Source of the DNA: Clostridiales bacterium
Lineage (GTDB): Bacteria; Bacillota; Clostridia; Caldicoprobacterales; UBA3941
NCBI GenBank assembly: GCA_012735575.1
Contig: JAAYGY010000063.1
Location: 1-42,300 of the forward strand
DNA: 42,300 bases
Direction: 5' to 3'
This document shows, piece by piece, positions 18,739 through 36,615 of this stretch (the first letter of the stretch is position 1; every line of letters begins with the position of its first letter). The notes under the pieces are model-generated. The model did no database searches, was not told the origin of the DNA, and was given only the letters and a program-made list of their open reading frames with translations. Both the position numbers and the translations under genes were made by a program.

Positions 18739-20010
18739 ATGCAAGATAAACAAGATCGCATTAAGTGGTTTATGCATGATCGGTTTGGCATGTTCATTCA
18801 CTGGGGACTATACGCTATCCCAGCTAGAGGTGAATGGGTTAGAAGCAGGGAAAAACTGACCATTGAAGACTACCAACCTTTCTTTGAAGAGTTTGATCCA
18901 ATCTATTATAATCCAAGAGAATGGGCAAAGGCAGCTAAAAATGCGGGAATGAAGTATGCTGTTATGACCACCAAACACCATGATGGTTTTTGCCTCTTCG
19001 ATAGTAAGCTTACAGATTACAAAGCAACCAATACTCCTGCTGGAAGAGATCTAATCAAAGAATATGTAGAAGCCTTTCGTGCTGAAGGCTTAAAAGTAGG
19101 CTTTTACTACTCCTTAATCGACTGGCATCACCCAGATTATCCTGCTTATGGTGATAGAACCCATCCTATGAGAGATAATGAAGATTGGAAAGATAAAGAG
19201 AAGGATAAGGATTTTTCACGATATATTGAATATCTTCATGGCCAGGTTAAAGATCTTGTCACCAATTATGGTAAAATAGACATTATGTGGTTTGATTTTT
19301 CCTATGATGATATGGTAGGTGAAAAATGGGAAGCTACCAGGTTAGTTGAAATGATAAGATCCATACAGCCACATATAATTATTGACAACCGTCTTACACT
19401 CCATGGTGACTTTGACGATCCAAAACCCTATTCAGGAGATTTTGCCTCACCTGAACAGATTATACCTCCAGAGGGCATAAGAAATTCAAAAGGTGAACTT
19501 ATCCCCTGGGAAGCCTGTATAACAATGAACAATCACTGGGGATATGCATCAAGTGACAAGGACTTTAAATCCCCAAAACAACTTATCCGTGCTTTAGTAG
19601 AATGTGTTAGCAAGGGTGGCAACTTGCTCCTTAACGTAGGACCTGATGCCAAGGGACAAATACCAAAAGAATCATTGGACATACTTGCTGAAATTGGTGA
19701 ATGGATGAAACAAAACGGCGATAGTATATACGGTTGTGAAATAGCTGAACTACCTAAACCTGAGTGGGGCCGCTATACCCAAAATGGCAACAAACTATAT
19801 GCTCATATTTTTGACAGAGGAATTGGCCCAATCGCTGTCCAAGGCCTTAAAAAGAAAGTAAAGAGAGCCCGCCTACTAGCTGATAAATCAGAAGTCAATA
19901 TTCAAACCCCCTGGACATCCATGCACTATGGTGATGCAATCTTCATTAATCTGCCAAGCTCTCAATTACCTGATGACAGGGATACAGTAGTAGAGTTAGA
20001 GTTTGAATAA
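18739..20010 (+). CDS. GH29 alpha-L-fucosidase, short form
   Basis: Retaining alpha-L-fucosidase of family GH29 (423 residues). The barrel opens with RFGMFIHWGLYAIPARGEW, the active-site phrase TTKHHDGFCLFDS is at 77-89, the likely nucleophile is D186 in DIMWFDFSYDD, and SKGGNLLLNVGP is at 291-302. A short beta domain follows. No signal peptide is present, so it should act in the cytoplasm on imported oligosaccharides. The ATG has AGGAGG 8 bases upstream. It is transcribed divergently from the AraC-type gene and apart from the large fucosidase operon. The acid/base residue, variable in GH29, may be E239 or E245. Confidence 0.93.
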   Translation: MQDKQDRIKWFMHDRFGMFIHWGLYAIPARGEWVRSREKLTIEDYQPFFEEFDPIYYNPREWAKAAKNAGMKYAVMTTKHHDGFCLFDSKLTDYKATNTPAGRDLIKEYVEAFRAEGLKVGFYYSLIDWHHPDYPAYGDRTHPMRDNEDWKDKEKDKDFSRYIEYLHGQVKDLVTNYGKIDIMWFDFSYDDMVGEKWEATRLVEMIRSIQPHIIIDNRLTLHGDFDDPKPYSGDFASPEQIIPPEGIRNSKGELIPWEACITMNNHWGYASSDKDFKSPKQLIRALVECVSKGGNLLLNVGPDAKGQIPKESLDILAEIGEWMKQNGDSIYGCEIAELPKPEWGRYTQNGNKLYAHIFDRGIGPIAVQGLKKKVKRARLLADKSEVNIQTPWTSMHYGDAIFINLPSSQLPDDRDTVVELEFE

Positions 20011-23769: not shown

Positions 23770-25191
23770 TTATTTAAATGCCTTTTCAATTTTAAAAGCA
23801 TAGGCATTCCCGATAGGTAAATGTTTGGCAGGATATGTTGGTACTTTAATATATAACTCATTATCCCTGTAAACGGAATCCAGTTTTTCCGGATATCCTA
23901 GAAGCCTAACTACAGGATCCTGCAGATCCAGATTAGGAATATTAAGCTTTAAATCCTTCTCAGGCCAATCCAGGCATATTGCATAAAGATGTCTGTCATT
24001 CCTGGTAAACCGTACATTGTCATTATATGAGCTATATGTCCAACTATATGTCCAGGGCTTGGTACCATATATTGCTTCCCCGTTTATTTTGAGCCAATCA
24101 CCTATCTGCAGCAGGCGCTCTTCCATAATAACAGGGATGGTACCATCCGCTGCAGGACCTATGTTCAGTAACAAATTCCCGCCCTTACTAACTGTATCTA
24201 CTAACAAATGAATAAGCTCCGTTTCAGTCATATAATCTTTTAAATTCTCGTTTCTGTTATATCCAAAGGATGAACCTATACCCCGGCATTCTTCCCATTT
24301 TCTCATACCTTCTGCATCTTCATAGTCCAACTCTACACCTGGCGTTACCTCTCCATATTCTGTCGTATAATAGCCTCCATGCCGGCTCCTGGTTTCCTTC
24401 CCCCACCTGTCATTTACAACAATCTGATCCCTGACTTTTGATTCATTGAAAAGCCAGGTTAAAAACTCCTGACTGCGCCATACATGGCTAGAATGATCCC
24501 ATTCCCCATCGGTGAAAAGAAGATCAGGAGAATAGGTGTTAATTATATCCTTCATCTGCGGAATCATGTGTTTGGTAGCATATAAGCTGGGATCCTGCAA
24601 ATACAGTGGGTTATCCCACTCCATTAATGAATAATATAATCCCATTTTTAAATTTCGCTTTCTTACAGCTGCTGTTAACTCTCCAACAATATCCCTCCTG
24701 GGGCCAACATCACAGCTATTCCAATTTGGACTTTGAACACTGGGCCATAAGCAGAAACCATCATGATGCTTGCTTGTCAATACTACATAGCCAGCACCTG
24801 CTTCTTTAAAAAGCTCAGCCCAGCTGTCTGCATCAAAAAGCTCGGCTCTAAACATTGGAGCAAAATCCTTATATTCGAATTTTTCTCCATAAGTTTCTTT
24901 ATGGAATCTATAAAAATCAGAATTAGGATCCTTTATGGCATGACCATACCATTCAGCATAAGCTTTTTTAGGTCCCCACGCGGGTACAGAATACACTCCC
25001 CAGTGGATAAATATTCCAAACTTAACATTATCAAACCAGGCCGGTATCGGCCGCCTATCTATTAACTCCCATCCCTTTATTTCCCTTAATCCTTCCACTT
25101 CTACACTTTTCCTTTCCCAAATACTAGTTTCTGTCATATATTTATAGGAAAACTTAGATTTAGACTTTATCTGGCCTTTACATCTAGCCAT
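23770..25191 (-). CDS. GH29 alpha-L-fucosidase, GH29-A-like
   Basis: A 473-residue GH29 fucosidase. Barrel landmarks are KFGIFIHWGVYSVPAWG (57-73), TSKHHDGFCLWPS (139-151), nucleophile D228 in PDLLFTDGEWD, and SKGGNLLLNIGPAADG (335-350). The TDGEWD form resembles the broad-specificity GH29-A enzymes of animals and plants. A beta-sandwich tail follows. The ATG at 25191 overlaps the end of the preceding fucosidase gene by 8 bases and has no ribosome site of its own, so translation probably relies on coupling; M19 is an alternative start, also without a clear site. There is no signal peptide. Confidence 0.93.
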   Translation of the reverse strand: MARCKGQIKSKSKFSYKYMTETSIWERKSVEVEGLREIKGWELIDRRPIPAWFDNVKFGIFIHWGVYSVPAWGPKKAYAEWYGHAIKDPNSDFYRFHKETYGEKFEYKDFAPMFRAELFDADSWAELFKEAGAGYVVLTSKHHDGFCLWPSVQSPNWNSCDVGPRRDIVGELTAAVRKRNLKMGLYYSLMEWDNPLYLQDPSLYATKHMIPQMKDIINTYSPDLLFTDGEWDHSSHVWRSQEFLTWLFNESKVRDQIVVNDRWGKETRSRHGGYYTTEYGEVTPGVELDYEDAEGMRKWEECRGIGSSFGYNRNENLKDYMTETELIHLLVDTVSKGGNLLLNIGPAADGTIPVIMEERLLQIGDWLKINGEAIYGTKPWTYSWTYSSYNDNVRFTRNDRHLYAICLDWPEKDLKLNIPNLDLQDPVVRLLGYPEKLDSVYRDNELYIKVPTYPAKHLPIGNAYAFKIEKAFK

Positions 25192-26881
25192 CTATGGATG
25201 TTATGTAAGCAGATTCAAATTTTAATTCAATATCCTTAGTAGCATAAGCCGGTTCGTCAAGGGTAATTGTAAAAGGAGTAATCTCATTAGCGGGAACCGT
25301 AAATGGTCCTATTTTTTCCTTAGTCAATTGCTGGCCTGTAACAACATAAGAATCCTTACCAATCTGTACACGATATTTTTCATCAGGGTTTGCCTCTCCA
25401 TTTAGTTGTAGGTACACCTGATTATCCTTTAAGCAGCATATATAGGCAGTTTGTCTAATAACAGTCTGTCTTACATTAAAATAATTGCCTTGATCTGCAT
25501 AACTGCGCCCTAGATAAATATGTTCAGGATATATAGTCCATGTTCCATCTTCAGATGGGGTAAGGGTTTTTTCTGGCTTTATACGCAGTTCTCCAGATAG
25601 TTTAACCCTTATAACAGGAAGTATTGAATCTTTGGGCTTTTCTGGTAAGCTGATTATAAGATCGCTGCCTTCTTGTTTCCATTCCAGCTCATTGGAGTCT
25701 CCATCCTCCTGTACTTTGACTACCCTGGTCATTAATCCGGAAAGTTTTAATTCTCCTGTTTCAGGCCAATTAATAACATGGAGGAATAAGTCACGATTAT
25801 TTAATGTTATCTCACCCCAAGGTTGTCCTCCAAAGCGAGTTGCCGATGCACCTATTACTGCGTTTGGATGACGCTTAAGCCAGGCTTCTATTTCCCTCAA
25901 AACATCAGCTTCAAATTCAACTACGGAACCGTCTCCACGAGGCCCTATATTTAAAAGATAATTTCCTCCACGGGCTGTTATACTGGCTAAGCCAGTAACA
26001 AGTTCCCTTACCTTGCCTTCAAAATCATCCCGTACTTGCCAGCTTCGATAACCCCAGGTTGAATGATAGATGGAAGCAGGAGTCTGCCATGGACCATCTA
26101 AGGTTGTGTCTGGAACCTGGTTGTCTCCTAAAGTTCGAAAATCGCCTATGTTATTGAAGATTCGGCTATTTATAGCGGCTTGGGGCTGCAGCTCTCGAAC
26201 TATATTTGCAAATTTACAGCTTTGCTCCGGGGTTGGTGAAGACATATCAAACCATACCTCAACGATTGATCCATAGTTGGTCATTAGCTCACGCAGCTGT
26301 TGTTCAATTAATGGCTCCATGGACTCTGGTATGGGATTACAGTTTCTTTTATCAAAGGTATGGCCCTGACTCCAGTCAACCAGGGAAAAATAAACACCAA
26401 AACCTAATCCCTGTCTGCGGCATTCCTCTGCCAGTTCTTTTAAGGGATCCTTTTTGTAAAGAGTACTGTCCACAATATTATAATCTGTAGTAGCTGTATC
26501 AAACATGGCAAAGCCATCATGATGTTTGGAAGTAATTACAATATACTTCATTCCGGCCTCCTTGGCCAGGGAACAAATTTCTTTAGGATTGAACTTCTCG
26601 GCAGTAAAATATCTGGCTACCTGGAGATAATCTTCCTTAGGTATGTTTGCCCACATTTGAATCTGTTCACTATAACCCTCTTTTACTGGTTCATTATTCC
26701 AAACTCCACCAAACTGAGAATATATTCCCCAGTGAATAAACATACCGTATTGCAAACGCTGCCATGCAGCGATTCTTTGATCTGAACTATATCCTATCTC
26801 GCCCTTTATACCTTTAATATGGTTTTCTATTGTCTGTCCATTATTATAATTGTTCATACAAGTTGATTTATTATCAGACAT
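25184..26881 (-). CDS. GH29 alpha-L-fucosidase, long form with C-terminal beta domains
   Basis: A 565-residue GH29 enzyme. Landmarks are QYGMFIHWGIYSQFGGVWN (44-62), TSKHHDGFAMFDT (117-129), likely nucleophile D212 in VEVWFDMSSP, and ARGGNYLLNIGPRGDG (303-318). After the barrel come a beta-sandwich (about 350-450) and an extra C-terminal module (about 455-565) not present in the two other GH29 proteins of the window, perhaps glycan-binding. The three GH29 proteins differ clearly around the nucleophile, suggesting different linkages. ATG 26881 has GGAGG 8 bases upstream. No signal peptide. Confidence 0.92.
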   Translation of the reverse strand: MSDNKSTCMNNYNNGQTIENHIKGIKGEIGYSSDQRIAAWQRLQYGMFIHWGIYSQFGGVWNNEPVKEGYSEQIQMWANIPKEDYLQVARYFTAEKFNPKEICSLAKEAGMKYIVITSKHHDGFAMFDTATTDYNIVDSTLYKKDPLKELAEECRRQGLGFGVYFSLVDWSQGHTFDKRNCNPIPESMEPLIEQQLRELMTNYGSIVEVWFDMSSPTPEQSCKFANIVRELQPQAAINSRIFNNIGDFRTLGDNQVPDTTLDGPWQTPASIYHSTWGYRSWQVRDDFEGKVRELVTGLASITARGGNYLLNIGPRGDGSVVEFEADVLREIEAWLKRHPNAVIGASATRFGGQPWGEITLNNRDLFLHVINWPETGELKLSGLMTRVVKVQEDGDSNELEWKQEGSDLIISLPEKPKDSILPVIRVKLSGELRIKPEKTLTPSEDGTWTIYPEHIYLGRSYADQGNYFNVRQTVIRQTAYICCLKDNQVYLQLNGEANPDEKYRVQIGKDSYVVTGQQLTKEKIGPFTVPANEITPFTITLDEPAYATKDIELKFESAYITSIDG

Positions 26882-32527: not shown

Positions 32528-32738
32528 TTCTCTCACCTCATGTATTTCTTTCTAGAAAGTGGGTATAATATAAATATATATGTCTTTTATTTTACCACTT
32601 ATTTTACTTTACTGCATCATAATAATAGCACGATAAATAAATGTATTATTCAAAATGCACAAATTTTTTGACTTTTTTAACACATTTTGTAGATTCTTTT
32701 AATTTTAACCTGGATTTTACTGAGATTTTTCTTTGTAA

Positions 32739-32747
32739 TGGTATAAT
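32739..32747 (+). promoter_or_regulatory. Extended -10 promoter of the HPr-like gene
   Basis: TGGTATAAT (TG-N-TATAAT) with a perfect -10 at 32742-32747 and no good -35. It reads towards the ATG at 32812. Confidence 0.5.
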
Positions 32748-32811
32748 AATAGTGACAAAGAGCATAAAATAGATAATTGACTGCTAAGTAGACAGAAAGG
32801 CAGGTGAATGT

Positions 32812-33048
32812 ATGTACAGTATTGAAAAACAAATACGCTTAGGCGAGTTAACTGAAGTCCGGGATTTTGTTGTCCTTGCATCTAAATATCAATGTGATGT
32901 AAAGGTAAAAAGCAAGAATTCTGTGACTGATGGTAAAAGCATACTGGGAATCTTATCCCTAGGATTATGGCGTCCTATAACAGTAACTGCATCTGGTGTA
33001 GATGCCAAAAAATTCGAAAAAGGACTTGAAAGATTTGAAGCACAGTGA
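32812..33048 (+). CDS. HPr-like protein lacking the phosphorylatable histidine
   Basis: A 78-residue protein with the HPr fold signature in its second half: DGKSILGILSLGLWRPITVTASGVDAKKFEKGLERF, matching the (N/D)xKSIxGxxSL region with the regulatory Ser46 equivalent. The first half (IRLGELTEVRDFVVLASKY) replaces the GLHARP active site, and the whole protein contains no His, so it cannot carry phosphate as PTS HPr does. It may act as a regulatory paralogue, as Crh does in Bacillus with Gln in place of His15. The ATG follows GGCAGGTG. Monocistronic, with its own promoter and terminator. Confidence 0.75.
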   Translation: MYSIEKQIRLGELTEVRDFVVLASKYQCDVKVKSKNSVTDGKSILGILSLGLWRPITVTASGVDAKKFEKGLERFEAQ

Positions 33049-33050
33049 AT

Positions 33051-33087
33051 AAGGTACCTTCGTTATTTATAATGAATAAGGTACCTT
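33051..33087 (+). terminator. Terminator of the HPr-like gene
   Basis: AAGGTACCTT occurs at 33051-33060 and 33078-33087; as each copy is itself a palindrome they also pair with each other to a 10-bp stem, followed by TTATCTTTT. Beyond it, up to 33243, the spacer holds no gene. Confidence 0.7.
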
Positions 33088-35361: not shown

Positions 35362-36615
35362 ATGGAAACTAAAAACCGGATCATATTCCATATTGACGTA
35401 AACTCAGCCTATTTATCCTGGGAGGCGGTTTATCGCCTGCAACATGGTGATACTCTTGATCTTCGAACTATCCCATCAGTAGTAGGTGGGGATGTTACTG
35501 CCCGAAGAGGCATAGTTCTTGCAAAATCTATACCTACCAAGCCCTACAAGATTAAGACGGGGGAATCCTTGTTTTCTGCTAAACTAAAGTGCCCTGATTT
35601 GGTAATTGTTCCCCCCAGGTATCATCTATATATGCAGTGCAGTAAAGCCTTGATTTCCATACTTGAAGAATATTCCCCCTCTATACAGCAATTCTCCATA
35701 GACGAGGTTTTCCTCGACTTTACTAATATGGAGGTTCACTGGGGAGATCCCATACAGGCTGCTCATAGAATCAAGGAACGTATCAAAAAGGAATTGGGGT
35801 TTACAGTAAATATAGGTATTTCCAATAATAAACTCCTTGCCAAAATGGCATCGGACTTGCAAAAGCCTGATAAAGTACATACACTCTTCCCCCATGAAAT
35901 TGGTGACAAAATGTGGCCCCTGCCCGTAGAGGAACTGTTTATGGTAGGGCGATCCACTACCTTTAAACTTCATAAAAAAGGTATATTTACCATAGGAGAT
36001 CTTGCCGCCACAGATCCCAAGCTGCTGATGCAATGGTTTAAAAGTCATGGCCGTCTTATCTGGGAATTTGCCAACGGCATAGAGAATTCACCTGTTCGTC
36101 AAGATTTTCCTGTAAAGGGGCTGGGCAACTCTTCCACCATAGCTTTTGATATAGAGGACAGAAAGACCGCCCATAGAGCATTATTGTCCCTTACCGAAAC
36201 TGTCGCTATGCGTCTTAGGGATATAAGGAAATCAGCAAGGGTTCTATCGGTGTATATAAAAGACCGGGATTTTGAATCCTGCTCCCATCAGCGGAAATTG
36301 GATGTCCCTACCAACTCCACCAACATCCTATACCAGGTTGCATGCCAACTGTTTGATGAATTATGGCAAGGGCAACCTTTACGGCATCTGGGAGTTCGGA
36401 CTACTGAACTATATAGTGATGATTTTTATCAGCTGTCTTTCCTTGAAGCAGATATTGAAAGGCAGAAAGCTCTAGACGCCGCCGTTGATCAGATTAGAAA
36501 CCAATACGGCTGGGATTCAATTGTACGCTCATGCTTTTTATATTCCCGGCTAAGTCCTATGATGGGCGGTGTTATACAGGAAGAAGAGTATCCCATGATG
36601 TCTAGTATGCTATAA
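35362..36615 (+). CDS. dinB: Y-family DNA polymerase IV (translesion polymerase)
   Basis: Error-prone lesion-bypass polymerase induced by DNA damage. The catalytic carboxylates are visible: D12 in FHIDVNSAYLSWE and D114-E115 in FSIDEVFLDF. The palm/finger parts, the helix-hairpin-helix thumb (LFMVGRSTTFKLHKKGIFTIGDLA, about 191-217) and the C-terminal little-finger domain follow, 417 residues in all. Some Firmicute members (UvrX/UmuC type) look similar, so the DinB name is at family level. The ATG follows AAGGAGG. Its promoter holds a LexA box, which shows SOS control. The next gene lies 41 bases on. Confidence 0.9.
   Translation: METKNRIIFHIDVNSAYLSWEAVYRLQHGDTLDLRTIPSVVGGDVTARRGIVLAKSIPTKPYKIKTGESLFSAKLKCPDLVIVPPRYHLYMQCSKALISILEEYSPSIQQFSIDEVFLDFTNMEVHWGDPIQAAHRIKERIKKELGFTVNIGISNNKLLAKMASDLQKPDKVHTLFPHEIGDKMWPLPVEELFMVGRSTTFKLHKKGIFTIGDLAATDPKLLMQWFKSHGRLIWEFANGIENSPVRQDFPVKGLGNSSTIAFDIEDRKTAHRALLSLTETVAMRLRDIRKSARVLSVYIKDRDFESCSHQRKLDVPTNSTNILYQVACQLFDELWQGQPLRHLGVRTTELYSDDFYQLSFLEADIERQKALDAAVDQIRNQYGWDSIVRSCFLYSRLSPMMGGVIQEEEYPMMSSML

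Follow-up and report, generated by a model that had tools for sequence, protein, structure and literature searches.

The gene at positions 32812–33048 of the window, i.e., of the whole analysed DNA stretch of 42,300 nucleotides from a Clostridiales bacterium, probably encodes a serine-only, PTS-independent output (signal) protein of HPr kinase (HprK), by which it would be phosphorylated. The product appears to be a signalling protein of the HPr fold whose His phosphocarrier site was removed by a deletion and whose Ser46 site is retained. The gene belongs to the Caldicoprobacter-related branch A of a family of loop-less HPr-like proteins, of which B is the class-wide branch. The features of the locus are as follows:

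32720..32747, + strand: sigma-70-like promoter match, CTGAGA-16-TATAAT preceded by TG, 10/12 positions matching
32797..32806, + strand: RBS-like AAGGCAGGTG upstream of the ATG, found by eye, without statistics
32812..33048, + strand: loop-less HPr-like CDS, ATG start, 78 aa (ORF translation)
32839..32883, + strand: residues 10–24, the stretch after strand 1 plus helix A (model helix 13–24); the His15 loop before the helix is deleted
32938..32940, + strand: codon of Ser43, the equivalent of HPr Ser46 and predicted HPr kinase site (alignment to B. subtilis HPr)
33051..33087, + strand: terminator-like hairpin 3' of the stop codon, −15.4 kcal/mol, z −3.37

The gene is solitary: according to Pfam, it has a GNAT acetyltransferase gene on the opposite strand on one side and a GH4 glycosidase gene on the other. 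The promoter match is weak, since 8 such sites were found in the region versus 6.1 expected from shuffles. Equal folding of the hairpin was reached in 1/200 shuffles, and a simple terminator scan missed it, probably because the stem is bulged. The branch A gene is present in 20/30 genomes of the order, with the window's own genome counted; it was not found in the other 10/30, including a genome of the same genus (G001, 95% complete). In five of six pairs of its orthologues from family f1, dN/dS is 0.05–0.19, the sixth pair being saturated, which rules out a chance ORF. With its presence in two thirds of the order's genomes, purifying selection and 3' hairpin, the window ORF is a real gene.

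The protein belongs firmly to the HPr superfamily and fails as a phosphocarrier HPr. The Pfam profile PTS-HPr (PF00381) matches it with E 2e-8 (34.6 bits against a cut-off of 23); the match is restricted to profile positions 20–78 and does not reach the stretch that bears the active-site His. The cut-off of TIGR01003 is missed (29.2 bits vs 47.9). Two HPr-like paralogues of the same genome pass it, the whiA-linked one with 98.7 bits and the GLHARP-type one with 87.3, and the B paralogue fails with 24.1. The closest solved relatives by sequence are the HPr chains 3oqm_S and 2fep_S (E 1.6e-5), and the counterpart of TDGKSILGILSLGL of the window protein in B. subtilis HPr (1kkl_H) is the Ser46 region. 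The AlphaFold2 model, built from a 23-row alignment, has a mean pLDDT of 92.4 and the element order E-H-E-E-H-E-H. A Foldseek search at E ≤ 0.001 returned 30 matches, which are HPr or Crh chains. The VIA Z-scores of the model are 12.0 to 3lnw, 11.3 to HPr in the CcpA complex 2fep, 11.2 to HprK-bound HPr (1kkl_J) and 11.1 to Crh in the CcpA complex 1zvv_J; structure alignments with the HPr proteins of Thermoanaerobacter and B. subtilis show 27–31% identity. Another fold in structure prediction, which the earlier note had named as a refuting outcome, is disfavoured because the model, the Foldseek matches and the Z-scores are all HPr-type, and this candidate was rejected.

Relative to canonical HPr, the window protein shows a five-column gap in place of the KSGLH-type residues and a second gap of two columns, by which the turn after helix B is two residues shorter. 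To follow these positions, an alignment of 150 distinct sequences was used, each labelled A, B, H or W by the nearest of four queries from the window's own genome (G000); the window protein itself and a truncated sequence are among the 22 A-labelled ones. At the His15 column, 22/22 A-labelled and 70/70 B-labelled sequences have a gap, and because of this gap in 92/92 sequences we consider the His15 loop deleted rather than mutated. The same column holds His in all 42 H-labelled (GLHARP-type) sequences; the 16 W-labelled ones, which are nearest to the whiA-linked HPr, have Q, H, N, T, S or R there. The translation of 32812–33048 contains no histidine, as the earlier note had read together with the loss of the GLHARP site; the change is larger than a substitution of the His, the entire loop being gone. 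A histidine is present elsewhere in 17/22 A-labelled sequences, and none whatsoever occurs in 5/22 A-labelled and 14/70 B-labelled ones. Judging from the alignment, the total absence of His is incidental, and the universal trait is the gap at the His15 column.

The kinase serine is kept in 22/22 A-labelled and 69/70 B-labelled sequences (91/92 loop-less), which bears out the reading of a well-kept Ser46 region; in the window protein it is Ser43, located in a DGKSILG segment, and the kinase-site segment is the best-kept part of the loop-less family. One loop-less gene (L196, G021:C146) has Ala for the kinase Ser (VDGKALLG), and an ordinary B copy is present in the same genome. The equivalents of Arg17 and Pro18 are lost in the window protein; Arg17 of HPr is presumably a contact to CcpA.

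The phylogenetic tree was based on 109 of the 150 sequences, with the short rows L026, L113 and L198 left out, as were B and H rows that nearly duplicate others. A branch with a length of about 1.2 and support of 100/99 separates all 57 loop-less rows (A+B) from canonical HPr in this tree, for which the program warns of few columns. Within the loop-less clade, branch A (support 93/85, below the program's 95/80 mark) comprises 19 rows, which come from three families of the window's order (f1, f2 and f4), including the named species Caldicoprobacter algeriensis and C. oshimai besides several MAGs. Branch B is spread across the class. L029 and L047, A-labelled by best match, are placed with B in the tree. 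The clade shows a single origin, lacks the His15 loop and keeps the kinase Ser, in agreement with its own definition; on the sequences compared, it appears to be a widespread clostridial family, defined here.

As for the surroundings of branch B, its gene is head-to-head with an mtaB-like gene (tRNA methylthiotransferase) at 27/58 distinct loci; among the loci from the class search, the mtaB-like gene is beside B at 26/34, from 12 families (e.g., L213, L217, L030 and L053). An RNase R-like gene was found at 10/64 loci given for branch B. Both identities come from NCBIfam, with one protein each. The mtaB-like neighbour was not seen at the B gene of the window's genome or at branch A.

The loop-less HPr tracks hprK, not Enzyme I. 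The class sample consisted of 391 genomes, in which the loop-less gene was counted at E ≤ 1e-15 with the profile of A2, a cut chosen after two score groups were visible. By this count, 220 genomes carry the loop-less gene, 306 hprK and 156 Enzyme I. Among the carriers, hprK is found in 209/220 (odds ratio 14.5) and Enzyme I in 82/220 (odds ratio 0.78, p 0.25); the Fisher p-values here are descriptive, because genomes share ancestry and the counts ignore kinship. The association with hprK is equally strong in both kinds of genomes: with Enzyme I, 80 genomes have both genes, 2 the loop-less gene only, 52 hprK only and 22 neither; without Enzyme I, the corresponding numbers are 129, 9, 45 and 52. 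When only the 306 hprK-bearing genomes are considered, those with Enzyme I have the loop-less gene somewhat less often (odds ratio 0.54, p 0.013). A further 63 genomes fell between E 1e-15 and 1e-6 and were scored as lacking the loop-less gene, and 51 of them have hprK; if they are scored as carriers instead, hprK is present in 260/283. There is hprK without a strong loop-less match in 97 genomes, and therefore hprK has no need of the loop-less gene. The eleven carriers without an hprK match are 61–95% complete, and for ten of them an hprK-bearing genome of the same family is present in the sample. In the genome searches, scoring is limited to the top candidates of a first look. B. subtilis, one of 14 control genomes, possesses hprK and gave no match in the hprK search (PF07475), so some of the hprK absences may be misses.

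The window's genome (2.59 Mb, 96.3% complete) contains one hprK match, and hprK is present in 30/30 genomes of the order. A check for hprK and ptsH had been suggested in the earlier note; in addition to hprK, four HPr-like genes were found, namely a whiA-linked one with GLTARP, a GLHARP-type one, a B-type one and the window gene. A fifth match has E 0.7 and is within a 658-aa frame. The N-domain of Enzyme I (PF05524) has no match in this genome, while 7/14 control genomes matched, E. coli and B. subtilis among them. Its sole match to the PEP-utiliser C-domain (PF02896) is in an 887-aa frame, which by its length would be PPDK-like (pyruvate phosphate dikinase). The same N-domain was not found in 26/30 genomes of the order, only G004, G014, G023 and G026 having one. 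Enzyme I was also not found in 17/20 A-bearing genomes; the window-type protein therefore persists where no Enzyme I is found. Since the window protein has no His, its His15 loop is deleted and Enzyme I was not found in its genome, it is no His phosphocarrier, as had been claimed from the sequence.

The GLHARP-type HPr of this genome (L002, G000:C89, 1477–1761) and its orthologues have His15 in 29/29 genomes of the order that were read, and 25 of these 29 have no Enzyme I match. The whiA-adjacent HPr (L001, G000:C91, 1462–1746, − strand) has Thr for His15 (GLTARP), and a RapZ-like gene is also adjacent to it; the whiA linkage was checked in this genome. In the nearest relatives of this protein, the position is occupied by N or S (f1), Q (f2), R (G007) or His (G013 and G016).

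Ser phosphorylation and dephosphorylation by HprK are known to be controlled by glycolytic intermediates for HPr and Crh. Most likely, HPr kinase/phosphorylase would phosphorylate Ser43 of the window protein when glycolytic intermediates are high and take the phosphate off when they are low. A partner would then be affected solely via the Ser state of the protein, without the PTS. In the window's genome, this partner is probably not a classical CcpA; a different regulator may take this place or, by analogy with the action of Crh on MgsA, an enzyme of metabolism. A wider proposal, close to balanced and advanced tentatively, is that a second dedicated output of HPr kinase exists in Clostridia: an ancient HPr-fold family in which the phosphocarrier loop was deleted once and only the serine switch is left, and which would serve PTS-less organisms as a carbon-status signal with its own partners. 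HprK is usually discussed in connection with PTS sugar uptake and CcpA. The loop-less family, occurring with hprK and not with Enzyme I, could show a role of HprK in the absence of the PTS, and one organism offers a small testable set of proteins (A, B, whiA-linked and GLHARP type). It is also a warning that clostridial HPr-family proteins can be incapable of carrying phosphate on His.

Several alternatives concern what the serine state acts on. A minor but real possibility is that the protein is a CcpA-independent enzyme regulator, one Ser state of which binds and inhibits a metabolic enzyme. Its model would be unphosphorylated Crh, which, according to excerpts of PMC9631020, inhibits the methylglyoxal synthase MgsA independently of CcpA; by analogy, this inhibition is a fair model for the partner of the window protein. 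Structures of E. coli HPr bound to glycogen phosphorylase (9s8k) are among the matches of our model, and a CcpA-like partner is not evident in the window's genome. However, no gene is constantly beside clade A across families.

A classical Crh-like co-repressor, whose Ser-P form binds a CcpA and tightens its grip on cre sites, is unlikely. The Ser46 helix is well preserved, His15 is absent from Crh too (excerpts of PMC9631020), and 6/9 LacI genes from other genomes of the order (one per genome, the best-scoring) carry the Tyr and Arg of the CcpA contact motif. These six are all from family f2 (L247, L248 and L250–L253). However, the Arg contacting Ser46-P, which is Arg304 in B. subtilis CcpA according to excerpts of PMC4591507, occurs in 0/12 LacI-family genes found in the window's genome. 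These genes, aligned to a CcpA sequence, were found with the CcpA model as 13 matches, with one gene in two pieces and one with an internal stop; LacI genes below E 0.001 with this model would escape. The strict NCBIfam cut-off for CcpA, passed by 2/14 control genomes, is reached by no gene of the 30 genomes of the order, and the CcpA partner proposed in the earlier note was thus not recovered. The loss of the Arg17 equivalent also speaks against this role. A scan of both strands of the window for a cre pattern with one mismatch allowed gave one place and no exact match, which is chance level (34/100 shuffles equal). A CcpA role is possible in f2; in the window's genome, no partner for it is visible among the LacI-family genes found.

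The same genome also contains a better Crh candidate than the window protein, the whiA-linked Thr15 HPr. Crh of Bacillus and the window protein share the HPr fold, the lack of His15 and the Ser46 site, and in both an HprK substrate without a PTS role is expected. However, Crh retains the His15-region loop, and crh of B. subtilis adjoins whiA; the window gene is flanked by the GNAT and GH4 genes, and it is another HPr of its genome that is located at whiA. Thus, Crh is resembled by the whiA-linked HPr in its position and its substitution, and not by the window gene. In Crh, His15 is replaced (by Gln in P. thermoglucosidasius, excerpts of PMC9631020), whereas in the window protein the loop is deleted. 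The description of the protein as a more divergent Crh holds for the principle of a serine switch and does not hold for descent, the whiA-linked HPr being in the canonical half of the tree and the window protein in the loop-less clade. The window protein is Crh-like in principle and should not be filed as Crh. With HPr (PtsH) of Firmicutes it shares the fold and the Ser46 helix; unlike it, PtsH has the His15 loop and two residues more after helix B, passes TIGR01003 and needs Enzyme I as a phosphate donor, an enzyme that was not found in the genome of the window protein.

It is improbable that the protein is a kinase decoy, which would compete as a substrate of HPr kinase or anchor it and so tune the Ser-P received by the other HPr paralogues, although four HPr-like genes accompany one hprK match and the kinase-site segment is the part best kept. 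Least of all can it be a decaying functionless paralogue: the active site is lost and the A gene was not found in a third of the order's genomes, but the low dN/dS, the Ser in every A-labelled sequence and the class-wide retention of the sister branch B make this very improbable.

The open-licence full-text literature yielded no study of the function of any loop-less HPr-like protein, although one may be in print. The family is unmentioned in the excerpts of PMC2405797, PMC3526391, PMC6952197, PMC3656788, PMC4591507, PMC12175519, PMC10766802, PMC4634974, PMC8730811, PMC9674922 and PMC9631020. In excerpts of PMC3656788, Clostridium (Ruminiclostridium) cellulolyticum is said to be without an HPr orthologue or a cognate PTS enzyme II, and a role as a Crh-type signal is proposed for its Ccel_0806, which we liken to the window protein by description, not by sequence. 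In Thermoanaerobacterium saccharolyticum, BLAST is reported to have given a match to Crh (excerpts of PMC3526391), so Crh-type proteins of clostridia had already been noted earlier. For HPr of T. aotearoense, Ser46 phosphorylation and CcpA binding are shown in excerpts of PMC4634974, and Ser45 phosphorylation of C. difficile HPr is reported in those of PMC8730811 and PMC9674922.

The place of A is largely conserved within families and differs between them. In f1, it is found beside GNAT, PHP-type and Y-family polymerase genes, in f2 beside genes for MATE and an aminopeptidase, and in f4 beside those for dCMP deaminase and of the rpoD region; the relatives' neighbours were identified by reading the sequences and the window genes by Pfam. 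Genes for fucose, rhamnose and sulfated sugars are abundant in the window, and this abundance does not travel with A. A functional tie to the sugar genes of the window was rejected, because the neighbours of A change between families f1, f2 and f4; the suggestion that the protein is the carbon-status signal of this sugar window is not borne out. Plasmid carriage and a defence link were likewise rejected, as PLSDB and PADLOC gave no match.

A Y-family DNA polymerase gene is located near the HPr-like gene in the window (35362–36615), the two being immediate neighbours in L038, where the polymerase gene comes second, and the gene just after the GLHARP HPr gene is also of this kind (L002, 1792–2841); the presence of such a polymerase beside two HPr genes is probably a coincidence. 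In addition, the window contains three alpha-L-fucosidase (GH29) genes (18739–20010, 23770–25191 and 25184–26881), which are accompanied by RbsD/FucU, a sulfatase and the end of an alpha-L-rhamnosidase and form a region of deoxy-sugar use.
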